Shown: positions 18,993 through 64,000 of the stretch, piece after piece
Numbering within the stretch: position 1 is the first letter of the stretch
Layout: every line of letters starts with the position of its first letter
DNA from: Winogradskyella schleiferi
GTDB lineage: Bacteria; Bacteroidota; Bacteroidia; Flavobacteriales; Flavobacteriaceae
DNA length: 64,000 nt
Direction: 5' to 3'
Assembly (NCBI RefSeq): GCF_013394655.1
Contig: NZ_CP053351.1
Span: forward strand, 1,054,001 to 1,118,000
Notes under the pieces: model-generated
What the model was told of the DNA's origin: nothing
Database searches by the model: none
The model's input: only the letters and a program-made list of their open reading frames with translations
Made by a program: the position numbers and the translations under genes

Positions 18993-19610
18993 ATGGAATT
19001 TTCATCAAAACTTTTGGAAAACGCAGTCAACGAAATGTCGCAGTTACCAGGAATCGGTAAGCGAACTGCATTGCGTTTGGTTTTGCATTTATTGCGTCAA
19101 CCAGAACATCAAACCTTTCAATTGGCAGATGCTTTATCTAAGGTGCGACGTGAAATTAACTTTTGTAAATCGTGCCATAATATCAGTGATAAAGTGTTGT
19201 GCGAAATCTGCGAAAACCCAAATAGAAATAGCGAATTAATTTGTGTGGTGGAAGATATAAGAGATGTAATGGCTGTGGAAAATACCAGCTCCTTTAAAGG
19301 TCTGTATCACGTTTTAGGCGGAAAGATATCACCAATGGATGGGATTGGGCCACAGGATTTGAATATTTCTACTTTAGTTGAAAAAGTGAAATCAGGAAAA
19401 GTCAAGGAATTGATTTTTGCCATGAGTCCAACGATGGAAGGAGATACCACCAATTTTTATATCTTCAGGCAAATACAAGATTACAATGTAGCCATGTCCA
19501 CGATTGCGAGAGGCGTTGCAGCTGGAAACGAATTGGAATATACCGACGAAATTACTTTAGGTCGTAGCATAATTGATCGTGTGCCTTTTGAAGCATCACT
19601 AAAATCATGA
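18993..19610 (+). CDS. recR: Recombination mediator protein RecR
   Basis: A 205-residue protein that works with RecF and RecO to load RecA at gaps in single-stranded DNA. The helix-hairpin-helix near the start ([18 protein letters not shown]) binds DNA, a four-Cys zinc finger is [16 protein letters not shown] at about residues 57-72, and the Toprim domain follows with [13 protein letters not shown] and [16 protein letters not shown]. Length and order are as in the family. A short leader with TACCTTCG (18980-18987), close to the TAnnTTTG -7 form, ends only five bases before the ATG. The GT2 gene starts four bases after its stop. Confidence 0.97.
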
Positions 19611-55118: not shown

Positions 55119-55643
55119 AAAAATCTTTCAATAGCTATCAGTAAGATTCGCTTTTTTCTAACACTCATACTCAGTCTTAATACCTATTGATTTCCATGTT
55201 TGAAAATTAGATTTCTTTTGCTAGCTTAAATATCTTAATTAAGCTGATAACATTTAAAAGTTTATTGGACTATAAGAAGAAAACCTTCAGGTTTCTAAAA
55301 AAAGGTTGTCATTTATACCCAATTATAGCTCAGTTGCTAATTCGTGGTTCGTGCTTTGATTTTTGTAAGCTCGGATAAGTAGGGTAATTAAGATGTAAAT
55401 TATCATATTAGAACAGTTTTTATTAAAGAAAAGAGTGTTATTTAGTTTTTGAAGTGACTTGCAACTGGATGTCTGCAGCCTAATCCAGCGCAAGGCACCA
55501 CAAAACTGGTTTGCCATTTTTCAATGACAAGACAAACGTACATCTAAAGTATTGAAGAATAGAAAAATAAGTACGGACAACAAGTGGACAAGTTGAAGTA
55601 TCTCTATGGACAATGAGTGGACTATTTTTATTAAATAGCTGAT
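55119..55643. other. Gene-free region with the box array at its end
   Basis: 525 bases with no gene that I can support (small frames in it have no family look). aaacct / aggttt at 55281-55294 is a small hairpin. The notable part is 55574-55624, the phased TGGACAA array described separately. Confidence 0.6.
55574..55624 (+). promoter_or_regulatory. Array of four phased TGGACAA-type boxes
   Basis: Boxes at 55574-55580 (cggacaa), 55585-55591 (tggacaa), 55607-55613 (tggacaa) and 55618-55624 (tggacta) all start at multiples of 11 bases from the first (0, 11, 33, 44); the place at +22 is occupied by aagtatc. Each pair keeps the 11-bp offset of the promoter boxes at 57604 and 58348. The array lies 20 bases past the stop of the TPR-LuxR gene. 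No -7 element follows at the same spacing. Confidence 0.7.
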
Positions 55644-57455
55644 TTATAGCTCTATAACCAATTCTTGTAATGAGTCTTCTGTGGTTAAATTGAGTTTTTT
55701 ACGCAGACGATAGCGAGCCTTCTTTACACCTTCCACTGAAATATTGAGAATATTGGCAATTTCTTTACTCGAAAGATTCATTTTCAAAAGCGACATTAAT
55801 CGCAAATCATTATTACTTACTTCTGGATAATTGCGCATTACCTTAGAATTAAAATCTTTATGCACATCTTCAAAATAGGTTCTAAACTGTTCCCAATTAT
55901 TATCATTATTAATATCAAGATTAATAGTATTGATGACCTTTTGGTAACTTCTAGAATTCGGATTTTGAGATTTAAGTTCTTTTAATTGTGATTTTAAATC
56001 GAGTAAAACTTCATTTTTATGTGCCAAATGTAACGCATGTGTTGTGAGTTCTTTTTCTTTAAATTCTAGATCGTTATCTAGTTTTTCGCGTTCTATTTTA
56101 TTGCGCTTCATTTTTTGACGTAATCCGTAAACTAGGGCAGCAGCTAATGCAATTGAACCAATAAGTGAAATAATAAGAAACAATTTCTCATTTTCAGCTT
56201 TTTGTTTTCGTTCATTTAAAAGTTTGATTTCATTTGCTTTGATGATGAGTTCTTTCTCTTTTTTTTCTGATTGGTATTGAACCTCTAACTCGTTCATGCG
56301 TTCAATATTTTCCTCACCTAAGATTTCGTCATGAAGCTCATGGTAGTCGGTGTGATATTCGTAAGCCTTTTTGTAACGCCCTAAGCCTGCATAAGCTTTA
56401 GACATTTCTAATAAGTCACCAATCATTTTTTTACGTGTGCCGGTTTCTTCTGCGTTTTCTAAAGCACCTTTCATATAGCGCAACGCTTTTCTGTAATCTC
56501 CTTTTTTATTGTAAAGTTCTCCAAGATGGCGCCAGTTCAATCCAATAAGGGAAGTTTCTCCATATTGTTCGCTAATTTCTAAAGATTTTTTATAGTAATT
56601 TTCAGCAAGGTCTAAACTGTCTTGTTGGGCATAAATCCATCCGATATTATCGTAGGCTCCAGCCAGATCGTTATTGTAGTTTTGTGCTTTGTAATAAGGT
56701 ACTTCTGCTAACATAAGTGATTTTGCTAACTCATATTCTTTTTGACCTTTTAAATTAATGGCCATGTTCATATTGATGCTAGATATGTCGTCAATCAGAT
56801 TTAGTTTTTCATATATAACTTTTGCCTTTTTATAGTAATTATTTGAAATGTCATAATTGCCAATATCACCTTGTATGTTTCCTATATTCCAATAGCTTGC
56901 CGCAAGACTTTCTGCTGTGTCACCGATATCTTCTTTGAGCTTTAAACTTTTCATGTGGACTTCCAAACATTCGTTGAATCTGCCTAAATTTCGCAATGCG
57001 ATAGCCTTATTGTTTAGGGCAGCACATACTTGAACCATATCATTGAGTTCAGTATAACTGGTTATAACTTTGTCAAAGGTTGGTAAGGATTTTTCGTATT
57101 CAGAAGTCATATTATAGTAGACACCTAAATAGTTAGTGGTTCTGGCAATAAAGTTTTTGTTATTTAATCGTTTTGCTAGCACAATGGTACTATCCAAATA
57201 AGGTTTTGATGCCAAAGGATCGACATAAAGATATTCTGCCCATAACATCGCATAAGTAATAATCTGGGTGGTATCGGTTTGTGTTGATACGGCTTGCAAT
57301 AAACTATCTACCCGTTTATGATCCTGACTTTGTCCAGAAAATGAATTCAGCATAAAAATTAAAACTAATAGATAAAACAAATTGTCCACCTTCTGGTAGA
57401 CAGATTTATTGTATTTAAAAAATCGGACATTAATTGACACTTTGGGAATACTCAT
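55644..57455 (-). CDS. Membrane-anchored TPR sensor with LuxR-type DNA-binding domain
   Basis: A 603-residue one-component regulator. Order: signal-like hydrophobic segment (about residues 25-41), tetratricopeptide repeats over about 45-400 (periplasmic), a single transmembrane helix (about 424-445, LFLIISLIGSIALAAALVYG), a coiled-coil linker, and a GerE/LuxR-type helix-turn-helix at about 545-595 (NLSSKEIANILNISVEGVKKARYRLRKKL) in the cytoplasm. No kinase, receiver or phosphorylation motif is visible. It is divergent from the OMP and secreted-protein cluster, and the box pairs nearby make it the likely binder. A single TGGACAA box on its own side (57549-57557) may give autoregulation. Confidence 0.88.
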   Translation of the reverse strand: MSIPKVSINVRFFKYNKSVYQKVDNLFYLLVLIFMLNSFSGQSQDHKRVDSLLQAVSTQTDTTQIITYAMLWAEYLYVDPLASKPYLDSTIVLAKRLNNKNFIARTTNYLGVYYNMTSEYEKSLPTFDKVITSYTELNDMVQVCAALNNKAIALRNLGRFNECLEVHMKSLKLKEDIGDTAESLAASYWNIGNIQGDIGNYDISNNYYKKAKVIYEKLNLIDDISSINMNMAINLKGQKEYELAKSLMLAEVPYYKAQNYNNDLAGAYDNIGWIYAQQDSLDLAENYYKKSLEISEQYGETSLIGLNWRHLGELYNKKGDYRKALRYMKGALENAEETGTRKKMIGDLLEMSKAYAGLGRYKKAYEYHTDYHELHDEILGEENIERMNELEVQYQSEKKEKELIIKANEIKLLNERKQKAENEKLFLIISLIGSIALAAALVYGLRQKMKRNKIEREKLDNDLEFKEKELTTHALHLAHKNEVLLDLKSQLKELKSQNPNSRSYQKVINTINLDINNDNNWEQFRTYFEDVHKDFNSKVMRNYPEVSNNDLRLMSLLKMNLSSKEIANILNISVEGVKKARYRLRKKLNLTTEDSLQELVIEL

Positions 57456-57548: not shown

Positions 57549-57557
57549 TTGTCCACC
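57549..57557 (-). promoter_or_regulatory. Single TGGACAA box on the regulator side
   Basis: ttgtccacc on the plus strand is GGTGGACAA on the minus strand, 94 bases before the regulator start. It is inside a small palindrome (aggtg ... cacct, 57544-57558) and has no partner box 11 bases away. Confidence 0.4.
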
Positions 57558-57603: not shown

Positions 57604-57664
57604 TGGACAAAAGGTGGACAAACTAATTTTTATGGAAATCGAGGTGTTATTTTGTCTAAATTGC
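57604..57664 (+). promoter_or_regulatory. Box pair plus -7 element in front of the OMP gene
   Basis: TGGACAA at 57604-57610 and 57615-57621 (start-to-start 11 bases) is followed by 35 bases and then TAAATTGC at 57657-57664, which resembles the Bacteroidetes -7 element TAnnTTTG. The start codon is at 57684. The same set is repeated with the same 35-base spacer at 58348-58408. Confidence 0.75.
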
Positions 57665-57683
57665 TTCAACAAAAACTGGTTAA

Positions 57684-58331
57684 ATGCTTAAGAATTATAC
57701 AATTATCGTAGTTGTTTTATTGATGGGTTGGTCATGTTTAGGCCAACAACTCTACTTTGAATTGGGTACAACACTGTCCTCGTTTAATTATGAGAATTCG
57801 CAAGGTAGACCACTTGACAATCTATTGTCCCAATCGAAATCTTACTATGGCATGGGCTACAGGCAATCTATAAACACGAATAGAACCTTATTTCTATCAG
57901 TAGGTGCATCTTATAATAGTTATGGAGCCATTGGTAGTGAGAGTAGCATAGACAATTATTTTGAATGGGACGTCAGTTACTTAGGCCTAAAAGCTGGGTT
58001 AGGCATAAGACTATTTCAATTAAGGGATCTTACATTTTTGGCGAATGCTTCTATAGCGTCAGAATTCTTAATTCGAGGAACACAAACTATAAACAACGAT
58101 GTATATAACCTTGTTGGTGAGAAAGAATTCAACAATCAGATTTTTTTCGTTAGAGGAGGCATAGAAATGCAATATCCAGTTTCTAGGAGTACAGCAATTT
58201 TTGTGGGTTATACTTATGGAAAATCGGTTTTAATTAGTAGTGGAGAAAACAGTGAAACACTGAAGTTAAACGCACACCAATTTGGCTTGGGTTTTATTAT
58301 TAATCTGCCAAGATGTTATTGTAGTTATTAG
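57684..58331 (+). CDS. Small outer-membrane beta-barrel protein
   Basis: A 215-residue exported protein: signal peptide (MLKNYTIIVVVLLMGWSCLGQ) and then about eight amphipathic strands (QLYFELGTTLSSF, YYGMGYRQSI, LFLSVGASYNSYG, FVRGGIEMQYPV, AIFVGYTYGKS, HQFGLGFIINLP). No sorting tail is present, so it likely stays in the outer membrane as an OmpA-like or porin-like barrel. It is divergent from the TPR-LuxR gene and has its own box pair. Confidence 0.82.
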   Translation: MLKNYTIIVVVLLMGWSCLGQQLYFELGTTLSSFNYENSQGRPLDNLLSQSKSYYGMGYRQSINTNRTLFLSVGASYNSYGAIGSESSIDNYFEWDVSYLGLKAGLGIRLFQLRDLTFLANASIASEFLIRGTQTINNDVYNLVGEKEFNNQIFFVRGGIEMQYPVSRSTAIFVGYTYGKSVLISSGENSETLKLNAHQFGLGFIINLPRCYCSY

Positions 58332-58347
58332 AAAAATCGGGTTTTAG

Positions 58348-58408
58348 TGGACAAACGGTGGACAATAATCAAAATACTGTTATTAATAAAAATATAATTA
58401 TAAATTTC
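58348..58408 (+). promoter_or_regulatory. Box pair plus -7 element in front of the T9SS cluster
   Basis: TGGACAA at 58348-58354 and 58359-58365 (start-to-start 11 bases), then a 35-base spacer, then TAAATTTC at 58401-58408. It matches the arrangement at 57604-57664 in all three distances. The gene starts at 58453. Confidence 0.75.
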
Positions 58409-58452: not shown

Positions 58453-58962
58453 ATGAAAAAACTAGCATATATTCTATTACTTTTTTCCTTTGGGCAAGTG
58501 CTTCAGGCGCAGGATAATTCAGGTTATCGAATAATTAGCTCGAATTTAGGAAGCAGTGGTTCATCACAAGAGGTTGTTACGGCGAAAGGCACTTATAAAA
58601 TTAGCCAAAGTATAGGGCAATCTAGCGTTATCGGAACCCACACCAAAAATGGGTATTATTTAAGACAAGGCTATCAACAACCTTCTGTTAATGTAAAAAC
58701 CTTTGAAGAGCTTAATTATCAGCTAGAGGCAAAAGTGTATCCGAACCCTTTCGTCAACGACATAATAATAGAGTTTAGTACCAAAATTTCAAAGGACATT
58801 GCTATTAGCATTCTCGATGTTAATGGTAGAATCATCCACTCTCAGATCTTTTTACCAAGCCAAGAGTTGGAGCTTCAAATTAATGATGTTGCAAATGGAA
58901 CTTACTTTTTGAAAGTAGTATCTGGTGAGCATCACTTCAACACAAAATTAATTAAGATTTAA
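58453..58962 (+). CDS. Small secreted protein with T9SS type A sorting domain
   Basis: A 169-residue exported protein. After the signal peptide (MKKLAYILLLFSFGQVLQAQ) there is a short beta-rich part (RIISSNLGSSGSSQEVV, GTYKISQSIGQSSVIG, GYYLRQGYQQPS) and a T9SS type A tail (about 95-169, KVYPNPFVNDIIIEF to HHFNTKLIKI). It is likely a subunit or chaperone-like companion of the big surface proteins that follow in the same transcript; the gap to the next gene is 31 bases. Confidence 0.85.
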   Translation: MKKLAYILLLFSFGQVLQAQDNSGYRIISSNLGSSGSSQEVVTAKGTYKISQSIGQSSVIGTHTKNGYYLRQGYQQPSVNVKTFEELNYQLEAKVYPNPFVNDIIIEFSTKISKDIAISILDVNGRIIHSQIFLPSQELELQINDVANGTYFLKVVSGEHHFNTKLIKI

Positions 58963-58993: not shown

Positions 58994-61297
58994 ATGAAAA
59001 AAGTCCTAACCTTAGCATTCTTCGTTTGTTCTATGTTGCAAGCTTTTGCACAAACCGATGGTATTAGTTATCAAGCGGTAATTATTAGCCCAGAAGATTT
59101 AGAGTTGCCTGGAGTAGATTCACCTGGAAATTATCTACCTAATCACAACATAGCCATTCGATTTACCATATATGATAGTGGAAATCAATTGGAATTTCAA
59201 GAAGTACAGACTACAATTACTGATGAATTTGGGCGCATTAATTTATTAATTGGTGACGGAAATCACGATTATTTTAAAGAAATGAATTGGGATGGCACAC
59301 CAAAGGATTTAAAAGTAGAAATCGATTTTGATGCAGGAAGTAATTTTACCGAAATGAGCAGGGAAAGACTCACATTTTTACCTTATGCTTATCACAGAAA
59401 TATAACCGCTACGGGAACATTGACGGTTGATGATAGATCATATTTAAATGGAGAGCTTCAAGTTGAAGGTCCGACCAATTTGAATAGTACCTTGGATGTA
59501 AACAATGGTAATGCGACAAACCTCTCTGGAACTTTAACCGTTGAAGGAGAAACAAATCTCAGCGATGCCTTCAATGTAAACAATAGCAGTCCATCGCATC
59601 TCACAGGTGATTTACTAGTTAACGGAAATAGCGCATTAGATGGCACTTTAGATGTTATAGGTCAAACCACATTGAATGATTTACAGGTCAATGGGGAAGC
59701 GAGTTTTGGCGATTTATCAGCGGAAACACTTATAGTTAACCAAAGCACCAATTTATTCGGAACTACAATTATTGATGGACAAGGTGCTCAGGTGAAAATT
59801 ACCTCTAATTTGCCAAATGCTGGCATAGAAATGGGTAACCATCCGCTTCTAATAGATGGTGGGAAAAATGGATTGGCAATTAAGGTCAATGGAAATAGAG
59901 CGCCTTCAAATAACTATATTTCTTTTTATGATGATAATCAAATGTGGGGACGAATAGAAGGGCAAAGAGAAGAGGATTTGGAAATTAATTATCTATATGA
60001 TTTAGAAAAACAAAACCGAGACTTAACAATTGCACGAGCGGTTACAAGTACCACAGTAAGTGTTATAGAGGCTGTTTTTTCTACAGCAGAGGTTGCAGGA
60101 GCCTTAAGTAGTTCTACAGCATGTATTGGAATAGGCGGTTGTGTAACCTTGCCAATTCCTTCGATGATAGCCAATAAAGGAGTAAAAACAGTTCTTAAGG
60201 TTGCGAAAGGTGTAACACTTGGGCTGGAAGTGGGATTGGCAATAAACGCACTAGCGCAATTTTTACAGGTTGAAGAAGATAATATTGGCGTTTCTTATAT
60301 GTCTGGTGCTGGTGATTATGCGGAATATTTATCTAAGGAAAATAATGCGGACAATTTTATACCTGGCGAATTGGTCGGCATTAAAAATGGCTTAGTCTCA
60401 AAAGATATTTGGGGAGCTGAAAAGGTCATGGTGGTTTCGACAAGACCGATTGTTTTGGGGAAAATGCCACAACCAAATGAGGAAGCTAATTCCGTAAAAA
60501 TAGCGTTTATGGGACAAGTGCCCGTACGAGTTATGGGCAAGGTAGAACCAGGAGATTATATCATACCACATTTAATGGCAGACGGCTTAGCAAAAGCTGT
60601 CAACCCAAAGGATATGGAAACAAAAGATTATAAAAGGGTTGCAGGTGTGGCGTGGAACATTATCGGTAAAGAAGCAGGAATAAGTAAAGTAAATGTAGCC
60701 GTTGGCATAAATACCAATGATTTAAGTGATGTGGTTTCCCAGCAGGAAAAAGAGATGAACGCGCTTAAAGAACAAGCTGTGCAATTACAAGCTCAAATGG
60801 AAAAGTCCAATTCAGTTTTGGCCAAGTTAGTGCCTGGTTATGCTGAGGCGACAGGTTTTGATAGTGCCAATTCAAATGGGCAACAAGACCATACTTTAGT
60901 AAAACATGAGGACGATAATCACAGCGATGACGCTTATGGAAATATTATAAATGATGATGCTTATGGTGCAGATGAGATCCTCTATTTTGAAGTGTCTAGA
61001 GCACAAATTGAAGCTTTTATTACAATGGCAAGGGACATCTATGTACAGGCACTTGAAGACCAAAGCTTTCTTACGCGATTGGGTAAATCATCAGCTGACA
61101 ATAAAGGTTTAACAGCAGTATTTGAAGACATGCCATTGCTCGCTATGGAAGATCATCCTTTCTGGAGTCGAATGGATAAAGATGCTGCATATAAGGAAGA
61201 AGTGATACAATTTTTGAGTTCAAAAATCAGTAAGGGTTATCATACACACAAGAAATATGAACATAACTTCAAGGATTATAAAATTGTAAGGGATTAA
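58994..61297 (+). CDS. Large tail-fibre-like surface protein
   Basis: A 767-residue exported protein (signal peptide ending near LQAFAQ). Residues about 20-140 form a conserved flavobacterial head domain (ISYQAVIISPED, GRINLLIGDG). Residues about 140-260 are short repeated units of the Nx6GxLxVxG type (GELQVEGPTNLNSTLDVN, GTLTVEGETNLSDAFNVN) that suit a triple beta helix. Residues about 430-560 resemble the intramolecular-chaperone or Peptidase G2-type region of phage tail spikes (DYAEYLSKENNAD, PIVLGKMPQPNE, IAFMGQVPVRVMGKVEPGDYI). A charged helical tail follows. Trimer fibre on the surface is inferred. Gene 16 bases before the LRR gene. Confidence 0.8.
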   Translation: MKKVLTLAFFVCSMLQAFAQTDGISYQAVIISPEDLELPGVDSPGNYLPNHNIAIRFTIYDSGNQLEFQEVQTTITDEFGRINLLIGDGNHDYFKEMNWDGTPKDLKVEIDFDAGSNFTEMSRERLTFLPYAYHRNITATGTLTVDDRSYLNGELQVEGPTNLNSTLDVNNGNATNLSGTLTVEGETNLSDAFNVNNSSPSHLTGDLLVNGNSALDGTLDVIGQTTLNDLQVNGEASFGDLSAETLIVNQSTNLFGTTIIDGQGAQVKITSNLPNAGIEMGNHPLLIDGGKNGLAIKVNGNRAPSNNYISFYDDNQMWGRIEGQREEDLEINYLYDLEKQNRDLTIARAVTSTTVSVIEAVFSTAEVAGALSSSTACIGIGGCVTLPIPSMIANKGVKTVLKVAKGVTLGLEVGLAINALAQFLQVEEDNIGVSYMSGAGDYAEYLSKENNADNFIPGELVGIKNGLVSKDIWGAEKVMVVSTRPIVLGKMPQPNEEANSVKIAFMGQVPVRVMGKVEPGDYIIPHLMADGLAKAVNPKDMETKDYKRVAGVAWNIIGKEAGISKVNVAVGINTNDLSDVVSQQEKEMNALKEQAVQLQAQMEKSNSVLAKLVPGYAEATGFDSANSNGQQDHTLVKHEDDNHSDDAYGNIINDDAYGADEILYFEVSRAQIEAFITMARDIYVQALEDQSFLTRLGKSSADNKGLTAVFEDMPLLAMEDHPFWSRMDKDAAYKEEVIQFLSSKISKGYHTHKKYEHNFKDYKIVRD

Positions 61298-61313: not shown

Positions 61314-64000
61314 ATGAAGCGACATAATTTTATTGTTTTTATAGCGTGTATTTTAACGGTTTCTTTTGTTGATGCTCAAGATACAGCAATTCCAGATGCT
61401 AATTTTGAAAACTATTTAGAAACTCATGCGGCAGATGGAACTGTTGTAGCTATTGGTGATGCTTCCAGCATGGGAGATGGTTTTGCCAACAATGGTTCAG
61501 TGCCAACAAATCGAATAGAAAACGTTACAATTCTCGATGTTAGTAATTTGGATATTTCAGACCTAACAGGAACTGAAGATTTTACGGCTCTTGAAACATT
61601 AATCTGTAGTGATAATGCATTGTCAACGCTGAATGTTTCAAATAATACCAATCTAATAACCTTATTATGTGGCTCTAATTTCCTTACCGAATTAATGCTC
61701 AACAATAATTCAAGTTTAGAAACCCTTAATTGCTCGGATAACCAAATACAGAGTTTAGACATTCTCAATAACACGGCCTTAAAAAGTTTAACAGCTTCAG
61801 GTAATCAGCTTTCAGCAATAGACCTTTCTAGTAATCCAGAACTTTCCTTATTAGGCGTTTCAAATAATAGAATTGCAGGAGAACTCGTGGTAAGCAACAA
61901 TCCGGATTTGGAACGTTTGTTTTGTGCATCCAATCAAATTTTAACTTTAAACTTGGCTTCAAATCCCATTTTAAAAAACCTTGATGTATCAAATAATCAG
62001 CTGACGAGTTTAGATTTAAGTACTATCAATTCGGTTGTTTGTCCAGATCCACAAACGGATCCGATAACGGTTTGTCAAGATATGGCAACAATTGATGTAT
62101 CCAGAAATCAGTTGTCCTCTTTGGTTGTTAATAATGGCTATAACGAATTGTTTTCAATTTTTAATGCCTCTGACAATCCAGGTTTATTCTGTATTCAAAT
62201 TGATAATGGTTATACACCTTCGGGATGGATTAAGGATGATTGGACCTATTTCAGCGAGAATACCTGTGAAGATATTTACACTTATGTTCCTGACGATAAT
62301 TTTGAGCAAGCTTTGATTAACGATGGGCATGATGATATTTTAGATAATTTGGTTTTAACAGAAAATATAGATGTGCTCAAAAGTTTGGATGTTTCAAATG
62401 AATCTATTTCCAGTTTAGTGGGAATTGAAGATTTTTCAGCTTTGGAGATTTTGGATTGTAGTACAAATTCCATTGAGAATTTAGACGTTTCCAGCAACAC
62501 CGAACTAATCCAAATAGATGTTACTAATAACAATTTAATAGTTTTGGATTTAAGCACAAATACAGCGGTTACGACAATTTATTGTGCAAGTAATATGATT
62601 GAGCATCTAGATTTAAGCACAAATTTAGCACTGACTACACTCAATTGTTCCAATAACAACTTAACCAATTTGGACGTCAGTACTATTTCGTTGCTGAATA
62701 ATTTTGATTGTTCATTCAACCAAATGGAAAGTTTGAATCTTGTCAGTAATAACGCATTGGTAAGTGTATTGTGTAACGATAATAACTTGTTTGCCTTAAA
62801 TATTAACAACGGGAACAATACCTCAATTACCACGTTCAATGCCACAAATAATAACAATCTGTTCTGTATTCAAGTTGATGATGAAGCTTTTCCGGATACT
62901 GCAGGTTGGCAAAAAGATATGGGAGCATCCTACAATGTCGCTTGTGGTACTTATATTCCAGATGATAATTTTGAACAAGAATTAATTGATATAGGAATTG
63001 ATTCTGACGGCATTTTAAACAACTTTGTGGCGACTACAGATATTAATTCTGTGTTAGCATTAGATATTTCAAATCTCGCCATAGCTGACTTAACCGGAAT
63101 ACAAGATTTTGAAGATTTAATTGACTTAAATATTTCATATAATATATTAACAAATATAGATTTAAGTAATAATACAGACTTAGAAATTTTAGATTGCTCA
63201 AATAATGAAATCACGGATTTAGACCTTACCTTAAATGCCGCGTTAACCTCGTTGTTATGCAACGACAATAGCTTATTAACCATTAATATTGAAAATGGAA
63301 ACAATGGTGCACTGACGACGTTTAATGCTACAAATAATCCCAATTTATATTGTATAAATGTGGATGACGCTATTGTTGGGAGTATTCCTGGGAGTTGGCA
63401 AAAAGATGATTTTGCAGCCTATAATGGCGATTGTGATACGAATCGTGTAACGGCAATTCCAGATGGGTTTTTTGAACAAAGTTTAATTGACTTTGGCTTT
63501 GATGATGTTTTGGATGGCGAAGTAAAGACTGCTAACATTGAACATATCCAGAATTTGGATGTTAGTGACAAAAGTATTTCAGACTTAACAGGAATTCAAG
63601 ATTTTAAATCATTGGTGGAATTCGATTGTAGTGGTAATTTCCTGAATACATTGGATGTGAGCGATATGTTGTTTTTAGAACGTTTGAATTGTAGTTCAAA
63701 TTATCTACTCACAAATGATATTAACGATGAAGCTGGTTTATTCAATACAACAGGTACTATAAGTTTGAAAGCATTGTACTGCGCTGGTAACAATTTGAAT
63801 AATTTGGATATATCCCAAAACACCAATCTCGAAATATTGGATTGTGCGGATAATAATATTTCAGACCTAAATGTCAATAACAATGCATTGTTAAGAGTTT
63901 TATATGCATCTAATAATAATATGACCATTTTAGATTTAAGCAGCAATACAGCATTGGAAGATGTGAATTGCGATAGTAATCAAATTAGCGATTTAACAAC
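61314..64000 (+). CDS. Giant leucine-rich-repeat surface protein, partial (runs off the window)
   Basis: The frame begins with ATG at 61314 and is open through base 64000, giving at least 895 codons. A signal peptide (MKRHNFIVFIACILTVSFVDAQ) is followed by tandem modules, each opening with PDDNFEQ (or PDANFEN) and carrying BspA/internalin-like LRRs (LDVSNN, LNCSDNQIQSL, LDLSTN) and a closing half with CIQIDNGYTP-type and W-x-K-D caps with two Cys. Module starts are near 61390, 62285, 62955 and 63455. Sorting tail would be beyond the edge. Likely a T9SS-exported adhesin; last gene of the cluster seen. Confidence 0.88.
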   Translation, partial: MKRHNFIVFIACILTVSFVDAQDTAIPDANFENYLETHAADGTVVAIGDASSMGDGFANNGSVPTNRIENVTILDVSNLDISDLTGTEDFTALETLICSDNALSTLNVSNNTNLITLLCGSNFLTELMLNNNSSLETLNCSDNQIQSLDILNNTALKSLTASGNQLSAIDLSSNPELSLLGVSNNRIAGELVVSNNPDLERLFCASNQILTLNLASNPILKNLDVSNNQLTSLDLSTINSVVCPDPQTDPITVCQDMATIDVSRNQLSSLVVNNGYNELFSIFNASDNPGLFCIQIDNGYTPSGWIKDDWTYFSENTCEDIYTYVPDDNFEQALINDGHDDILDNLVLTENIDVLKSLDVSNESISSLVGIEDFSALEILDCSTNSIENLDVSSNTELIQIDVTNNNLIVLDLSTNTAVTTIYCASNMIEHLDLSTNLALTTLNCSNNNLTNLDVSTISLLNNFDCSFNQMESLNLVSNNALVSVLCNDNNLFALNINNGNNTSITTFNATNNNNLFCIQVDDEAFPDTAGWQKDMGASYNVACGTYIPDDNFEQELIDIGIDSDGILNNFVATTDINSVLALDISNLAIADLTGIQDFEDLIDLNISYNILTNIDLSNNTDLEILDCSNNEITDLDLTLNAALTSLLCNDNSLLTINIENGNNGALTTFNATNNPNLYCINVDDAIVGSIPGSWQKDDFAAYNGDCDTNRVTAIPDGFFEQSLIDFGFDDVLDGEVKTANIEHIQNLDVSDKSISDLTGIQDFKSLVEFDCSGNFLNTLDVSDMLFLERLNCSSNYLLTNDINDEAGLFNTTGTISLKALYCAGNNLNNLDISQNTNLEILDCADNNISDLNVNNNALLRVLYASNNNMTILDLSSNTALEDVNCDSNQISDLT

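Follow-up and report, generated by a model that had tools for sequence, protein, structure and literature searches.

In Winogradskyella schleiferi, a gene for a TPR-LuxR protein is accompanied on both sides by pairs of 7-bp boxes that stand at fixed distances from promoter −7 elements, and in related genomes the letters of such boxes follow the recognition helix of the adjacent regulator. The analysed DNA, here called the window, is a stretch of 64,000 nucleotides. Comparison with relatives establishes, at the level of sequence, the boxes, their fixed geometry, the fold of a structured RNA behind one of the promoters and the match between box and helix. As a whole, these observations are best explained by a membrane-anchored regulator that would use the paired boxes to recruit RNA polymerase to three local targets, a reading in which we place considerable confidence. 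The finding is larger than the preliminary description of this DNA had suggested: it comprises a regulator with a readable DNA address, a fixed geometry in both orientations and an RNA among the likely targets.

Results and discussion

The regulator and the genes facing it

The regulator gene (55644..57455, minus strand) encodes 603 amino acids. The protein consists of an N-terminal hydrophobic segment, TPR helices (Pfam TPR_12, 98.3 bits), a long helix with a second hydrophobic stretch and a C-terminal helix-turn-helix (HTH). Pfam GerE does not reach its gathering score in this protein (21.4 versus 23.5 bits); in an AlphaFold model (mean pLDDT 79.3; HTH blocks 70-83), helices are predicted at residues 548-558, 563-570 and 574-587, which points to the presence of a C-terminal helix-turn-helix with a recognition helix. 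The latter, at approximately residues 574-587, reads VEGVKKARYRLRKK, and the HTH is near-invariant in an alignment of regulators. The genome contains at least 21 matches to the regulator, most of them partial.

The TPR-LuxR gene had been described as directly divergent from the first box-bearing promoter, and it indeed adjoins four genes on the plus strand. These encode OMP, an outer-membrane beta-barrel protein of 215 amino acids (57684..58331; PF13505 at 27.0 bits, just below the cut-off of 28.7), a T9SS type A sorting-domain protein of 169 amino acids (58453..58962; PF18962, TIGR04183), a 767-aa protein with an apparent signal peptide and no Pfam family (58994..61297), which stands behind the T9SS gene in most 20-kb loci, and an LRR protein (61314..63998; PF12799), which continues beyond the window end and has 1889 amino acids in locus L084. 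The gene order recurs in most 20-kb relative loci with the regulator, with pairs before the OMP and the T9SS gene.

Two promoters with paired boxes

The first promoter, P1, carries the box pair TGGACAA-N4-TGGACAA at 57604..57621 of the plus strand (boxes 57604-57610 and 57615-57621) and its −7 element, TAAATTGC, at 57657..57664 (plus strand), 35 bases 3' of the pair. P2 repeats this arrangement on the same strand, with the identical pair at 58348..58365 (boxes 58348-58354 and 58359-58365) and the −7 element TAAATTTC at 58401..58408, again at a distance of 35 bases. Read from the letters of the window, the coordinates and the 11-bp offset of the boxes given in the preliminary description are correct, and the 35-base gap to a −7 element of TAnnTTTG type is exact at both promoters. 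The same holds for the absence of a −33 TTTG, as there is no TTTG 17-23 bases 5' of either −7 element. TAnnTT is kept in both elements, TAAATTGC being further from TAnnTTTG than TAAATTTC.

No exact pair other than those of P1 and P2, both with TAnnTT at +35, occurs in the window, and none was found in 200 dinucleotide-shuffled windows. When the whole 4.56-Mb genome was searched for GTGGACAA-N3-GTGGACAA with up to two mismatches, four matches were obtained (57603, 58347, 55573 and 55606), all of which lie in the window, within 2.8 kb around the TPR-LuxR gene; the reversed control pattern likewise gave four matches at this threshold. With up to three mismatches, the window contains 12 matches compared to a shuffle mean of 7.65, a number reached by 11 of 100 shuffles; since there is no enrichment at this level, only close matches to the pair were taken into account. 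A chance origin of the pairs was rejected on grounds of their genome-wide specificity and the 200 shuffled windows without an exact pair. Confinement of the motif to two promoters was rejected as well, as two more pairs and a third promoter exist.

Single boxes also occur near the start of the regulator gene: a reversed GGTGGACAA lies at 57549-57557 (minus strand) in its own upstream region, between regulator and P1, and a GGTGGACAA at 57382-57390 (minus strand) falls within its first codons. Autoregulation via these two boxes is possible.

A third promoter behind the regulator gene

Two further pairs, absent from the earlier account, are located just 3' of the regulator's stop codon and belong to a third promoter, P3. 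The promoter-proximal pair, CGGACAA-N4-TGGACAA (55574..55591, plus strand), is reversed with respect to its target and reads TTGTCCACTTGTTGTCCG in that direction. The second, TGGACAA-N4-TGGACTA (55607..55624, plus strand), is found 33 bases from the first and ends 20 bases from the stop codon. The −7 element TACGTTTG, of the form TAnnTTTG (55533..55540, minus strand), is separated from this proximal reversed pair by exactly 33 bases. The centre of the pair is therefore shifted by no more than about 2 bp relative to P1 and P2, and its polarity is opposite.

The same succession is found in relatives 3' of the regulator's stop: two reversed pairs, TAnnTTTG, about 80 highly conserved nucleotides and then usually a lipoprotein gene. 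A loose pattern yielded 93 candidate rows for P3, antisense and chance matches among them. A reversed TGTCCA pair with up to three mismatches is present in 56 of the 93, and in each of these 56 a TAnnTTTG (at least 5/6 letters) follows exactly 33 bases 3' of the reversed pair. In 46 of the 56 P3-type promoters, a second pair (up to three mismatches) is located 31-33 bases further 5'. Many genomes have pairs on both sides of the regulator and many loci the P3 type only; in genome G067, the RNA module with its pairs lies approximately 9 kb from the regulator.

Fixed promoter geometry

The geometry was assessed in 46 distinct promoters of OMP or T9SS-gene homologues that carry the pair (19 before OMP homologues, 27 before the T9SS gene); 13 further OMP or T9SS gene calls lack it, some of them having a mis-called start or an operon-internal position. 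A −7 element with at least 4/6 letters of TAnnTTTG is found at exactly 35 bases in 17 of the 19 OMP and 26 of the 27 T9SS-gene promoters, while the next best offsets account for 8 and 16 promoters, respectively. Thus, 43 of the 46 have the −7 element at 35 bases, 35 of them with at least 5/6 letters. Median identity amounts to only 0.46 (OMP) and 0.40 (T9SS gene) in the spacers, compared to 0.94 and 0.89 in the boxes. The fixed 35-base spacing that had been claimed as a feature of a promoter class is hence borne out in relatives, with spacer letters that drift. Among 64 forward sites, a −7 element with at least 5/6 letters lies at offset 35 in 36 cases and at any other offset from 9 to 73 in 0-5 cases.

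TTTG is not enriched 17-23 bases 5' of the −7 element, neither at the forward sites (2 of 71; shuffles 4.7) nor at the RNA promoters (5 of 76; shuffles 2.9). The shorter TTG precedes the −7 element slightly more often than in shuffles at the forward sites (15 of 71 versus 10.9 ± 3.0), and in 5 of 76 cases versus 6.8 in shuffles at the RNA promoters. Included in the 71 forward sites are those of AATTCTTG type. In many relatives, AATTCTTG lies 35 bases from the pairs behind the stop codon, as if an antisense forward promoter ran from these pairs into the 3' end of the regulator gene; this candidate was not adopted, since the letters of AATTCTTG fall in conserved codons for QELVI and are therefore uninformative.

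Pairs near regulators in related genomes

The preliminary description had proposed to scan related genomes for enrichment of the motif near TPR-LuxR genes. When an alignment of 17 regulators was used to scan GTDB genomes, 78 loci (from the best 80 of 225) were obtained in Flavobacteriaceae, Saprospiraceae and others, and the outcome was positive: among these 78 loci from the best 80 of 225, an exact TGGACAA-N4-TGGACA is present in 52 and the same pattern reversed in none. In the same set, up to one mismatch gave 118 matches in 61 loci, compared to 2 matches in 2 loci for the control. The exact pair is found in 11 of the 13 loci from genomes named Winogradskyella and in 41 of the 65 others, again among the best 80 of 225.

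Within the genus, a regulator match at E < 1e-70 is present in 15 of 60 genomes, all 15 of which have the pair (up to one mismatch); it occurs in 3 of the 45 genomes without such a match (G027, G029 and G053). Across 197 relatives, the pair (up to one mismatch) was detected in 34 genomes, part of these matches being away from regulators. One such sequence, GTGGACAAGAGGTAGACAA, is common to seven genomes of several genera (G027, G029, G072, G081, G083, G100 and G115) and may be conserved coding sequence that has nothing to do with the boxes.

Box letters follow the recognition helix

Some single loci contain several regulator-RNA modules with differing boxes, namely TGTCCA, TGTACC, GTATACC/TGTCTC and GTAACC/TGTCAC. 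A module scan returned 207 candidate rows, 77 of them with an adjacent regulator; one was dropped (an additional −7 call within the leader of L133), leaving 76 modules. Of the 130 rows with no regulator beside them, most are fortuitous matches to the loose pattern, but at least seven are true RNAs to which no regulator could be assigned (L020, L023, L024, L027, L098, L173 and L192). In all 76 modules, the box type is that of the adjacent regulator's helix type, while the best of 20000 shuffles reached 62; the box classes were first seen in 13 loci and then counted over all loci, so that those 13 do not constitute an independent test. Helices of the type EG/DG/AG..ARY go with the box TGTCYA (58 modules), DG..ARQ with TGTACC (9 modules), PG/AG..ARQ with GTATAC/GTCTC (7 modules) and VG..ARN with GTAACC/GTCAC (2 modules). 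Within the first class, L144 and L146 combine DG..ARY with TGTCCA, and the other DG/AG..ARY modules have TGTCTA. In the window protein, the positions that match the boxes would be E575 and Y582, which the model places two turns apart on one face of the helix.

A quick tree was computed with the helix left out, from up to 330 residues N-terminal of the HTH motif; 29 of its 73 inner branches have poor support. Along this tree, the type of helix and the type of box change 10 times each. In phylogenetically independent comparisons restricted to supported branches, helix and box agree in 6 of 6 cases for DG..ARQ (p = 0.031), as well as in 4 of 4 for PG/AG..ARQ, 3 of 3 for ARY and 2 of 2 for VG..ARN, each of the latter three being too few for significance alone. 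Since the P3 boxes and the HTH codons lie within about 250 bp, co-transfer by one recombination tract is possible; whether by co-transfer or by step-wise co-evolution, helix and box are kept as a matched unit. The claim that the TPR-LuxR regulator is the binder of the boxes is strongly supported by these comparisons, namely by the match in 76 of 76 modules and the ten changes of each type on the tree.

In a diverged paralogue group with the helix PDS..KSKYRL, in which the Y is kept, 10 of the 11 loci examined carry an exact TGGACAA pair 5' of the paralogue's start, on the opposite side of the gene, the exception being L030 of G053. Six loci with an HTH that fits neither pattern (L028, L029 and L031-L034) have no pair.

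A conserved structured RNA and the genes behind it

The conserved nucleotides behind P3 form a structured RNA (55445..55528, minus strand; covariance model 34.9 bits, E 4e-5) with a short hairpin and a long hairpin with a conserved apical CTGCAG; folding of single sequences likewise gives a short and a long hairpin. The covariance model was seeded with nine sequences of one length class. It matches the window copy only within this genome and, with stricter filters, 25 of 197 relatives. As the hairpin is nearly palindromic, antisense copies match the model too; these were removed before pairs were counted, which reduced 109 matches to 77 sense and 69 distinct sequences. In the alignment of these 69, which is fitted to the model, 94.5% of pairs are standard compared to a mean of 84% in shuffles and 30-51% in slid structures, and 22 of 25 pairs show compensatory changes on both sides, G-U included. 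At gathering score, the 4227 models of Rfam gave no match in the window or in L161, L125, L128 and L108, and a more permissive search (E up to 5) of three short stretches returned either nothing or one match far under the gathering score. A known RNA family was therefore rejected for want of an Rfam match, and within these searches the RNA is undescribed.

The RNA usually sits just before a start codon. Its arm GTTTTGTG is nearly invariant (window 55445-55528, minus strand, and loci among L085-L181), and the palindromic apical CTGCAG makes a loop-loop dimer possible. For the 5' arm there are two possible partners, the inner CACAAAAC and the ACCACAAAAC that immediately precedes the start codon. 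This alternative pairing of GTTTTGTGGT with ACCACAAAAC is seen in most leaders, and is beyond the reach of covariation because the 5' arm hardly varies.

At the place of the relatives' lipoprotein gene, the window has a small ORF of 27 amino acids, MIIYILITLLIRAYKNQSTNHELATEL (55323..55406, minus strand), with similar ORFs in G011 and G004. Ten loci without a lipoprotein gene were examined, eight of which have a short ORF of 23-36 amino acids behind the RNA, with none in L110 and L109. The small ORFs of the window, L112, L113, L138 and L156, which have 26-36 amino acids and a hydrophobic stretch, are of two unrelated kinds, MxIYILxTxLIRAY... and MNFSKNKSKRAKRSKERLAFTIFLILSAVFIF. Eight lipoproteins that follow the RNA were scanned against Pfam: three match Thiol_cytolysin and are thus pore-forming-like (L149 14014-15948, L157 14230-16215 and L153 11950-13872), and five match nothing.

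Proposed mechanism and alternatives

In the mechanism that we propose, the TPR-LuxR protein acts as a membrane-anchored one-component regulator whose TPR part would sense a signal outside the cytoplasm and whose C-terminal HTH would bind pairs of the 7-bp box TGGACAA with an 11-bp period. Once bound, it would most likely recruit RNA polymerase to promoters with a −7 TAnnTTTG and without a −33 TTTG. From P1, with its forward pair and 35-base spacer, OMP would be expressed, and from P2, with the same arrangement, the T9SS protein, the 767-aa protein and the LRR protein, probably as one operon. P3, where both pairs are reversed and the spacer has 33 bases, would direct synthesis of the structured RNA, which presumably serves as leader of the small ORF here and usually of a lipoprotein gene in relatives. 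Activation by the regulator is, we infer, the likeliest reading.

It is improbable, yet worth weighing, that the regulator binds the boxes to repress instead, or to loop P3 to P1 across its own gene. Such an arrangement would suit the pairs on both regulator sides in many genomes, the two pairs three helical turns apart that P3 usually has (46 of 56) and the reversed GGTGGACAA between regulator and P1 (57549-57557). However, the pairs do not overlap the promoter core but lie 5' of it at a constant distance, and a −33 TTTG is not enriched. The distant RNA module of G067 and the many loci that have the P3 type only also speak against this reading.

We regard it as very doubtful that another factor, e.g. 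a response regulator of OmpR/PhoB type, binds the boxes, although the 7-bp boxes repeated with an 11-bp period have just the geometry expected for such a protein, boxes without an orthologous regulator exist in G053 and some ARY regulators have no nearby pair. What decides against it is that the letters follow the helix of the adjacent TPR-LuxR protein in 76 of 76 modules, even among several modules in one locus; because of this covariation, a binder of OmpR/PhoB type was set aside. Reading by eye of the neighbourhoods listed likewise brought no gene of OmpR type to notice as a constant companion. Equally hard to credit is the idea that the hairpin 3' of P3 is a DNA element, such as a recombination or cassette site of which the P3 boxes are part. 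The nearly palindromic hairpin with its palindromic apical CTGCAG, the antisense copies that match the model and the varying genes behind the hairpin could be read in this way, but TAnnTTTG precedes it at a fixed distance from the boxes in 56 of 56 cases, it usually lies just before a start codon, 22 of 25 pairs show the compensatory changes, G-U included, and the window's genome holds a single copy.

Relation to known systems and wider meaning

The C-terminal HTH of the regulator resembles regulators of the LuxR/GerE/NarL type, with weak GerE similarity and weak sequence matches to the solved structures of EL222 and EsrB (E 0.19-0.52); two better-scoring structure chains, CAP REPEAT and C3HR3_9r_shift4, are apparently designed helical proteins. 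NarL-type sites are mostly inverted repeats. The present protein differs from the LuxR/GerE family in that GerE stays below its cut-off and the sites are 11-bp direct repeats in either orientation. Likeness to the NCBIfam families BT3442, FimS and SusR lies in the TPR part, and for BT3442 also in the C-terminal region, but the curated scores are far from reached (52.1 of 940, 84.7 of 600 and 30.7 of 480 bits, respectively). Housekeeping promoters of Bacteroidota have a −33 TTTG and a −7 TAnnTTTG. The promoters described here share the −7 element with this primary-sigma type, whereas a box pair at a fixed upstream distance is present and a −33 TTTG is not enriched.

Direct repeats of 7 bp + 4 bp with an 11-bp period are typical of the OmpR/PhoB family and its Pho-box type operators. 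The 7-bp half sites and the 11-bp direct repeat are present here as well, but the box letters follow a LuxR-like helix and no OmpR-type partner was noticed by eye. With leader RNAs and riboswitches of Rfam, the RNA has in common a structured 5' region before a start codon and a possible alternative pairing, and it differs from them in that no family reached the gathering level in the window or four loci. We know of no published operator for TPR-LuxR proteins. A limited literature search for GTGGACAA together with Flavobacterium, or for TPR, LuxR and Bacteroidetes, gave texts that, in the parts available, appear unrelated, those from the latter search without TGGACA; we do not claim that nothing has been published.

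Genomes of Bacteroidota frequently encode TPR-LuxR proteins. If box letters track two positions of the recognition helix, the targets of many such regulators might be readable from sequence. The geometry defines a promoter of presumably activator-dependent type for the phylum, and an undescribed structured RNA is exposed before surface and pore-forming-like proteins. We lean, with some reserve, towards a broader interpretation, in which marine Bacteroidota possess a family of mutually insulated modules that each combine a membrane TPR-LuxR sensor, an address in box letters (the helix code), a common switch RNA and an exported effector, which is either a lipoprotein, in some cases pore-forming-like, or a small membrane peptide. 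Several modules would then work in one genome without cross-talk, and the TGGACAA branch would also have captured the surface operon of OMP, T9SS and LRR genes.

Exceptions and box variants

A pair with up to one mismatch is lacking in 17 of the 78 loci (best 80 of 225). L117, L119 and L153, which have no TGGACAA pair, encode ARQ helices and carry their own box types, and in L172, L173 and L176 near-variants take the place of the box. In the stretch fetched, eleven ARY-type loci are without a pair at up to one mismatch (L111, L115, L116, L129, L142, L147, L151, L159, L165, L177 and L180), so that the pair is not always found beside an ARY-type regulator gene; of these, L115 and L129 are short contigs, and a GGGACAA-like pair is present in L159 and L165 when two mismatches are allowed. 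GGGACAA- or CGGACAA-like pairs 5' of ARY regulators without the usual pair were observed in L159 (9688), L165 (9767) and L173 (9962), and possibly represent a further box variant. An exact pair is present in L174 despite an HTH that lies outside the pattern used. In G053, P1 and P2 are kept at 35 bases and no ARY-type regulator is among the matches found; its nearest regulator relative is the KSKY-type paralogue that forms the one case in 11 without a pair. The regulator gene may have been lost recently, or the KSKY paralogue may be used instead.

G156, a genome of another family (loci L064-L081), contains 20 repeats similar to GTGGACAA-N3-GTGGACAA across the genome, compared to none for the reversed control, and only one weak match to the HTH part of the regulator. 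These repeats have periods of 11 bp and about 32 bp, and some lie in coding sequence near signal peptides (SGQxVD). In L084, at position 18995 and outside the window, a degenerate pair, CGGACAAAAGGCGGACAT, precedes the second ARY regulator of the same genome (helix NDGIKKARY); cross-talk with this paralogous regulator is possible.
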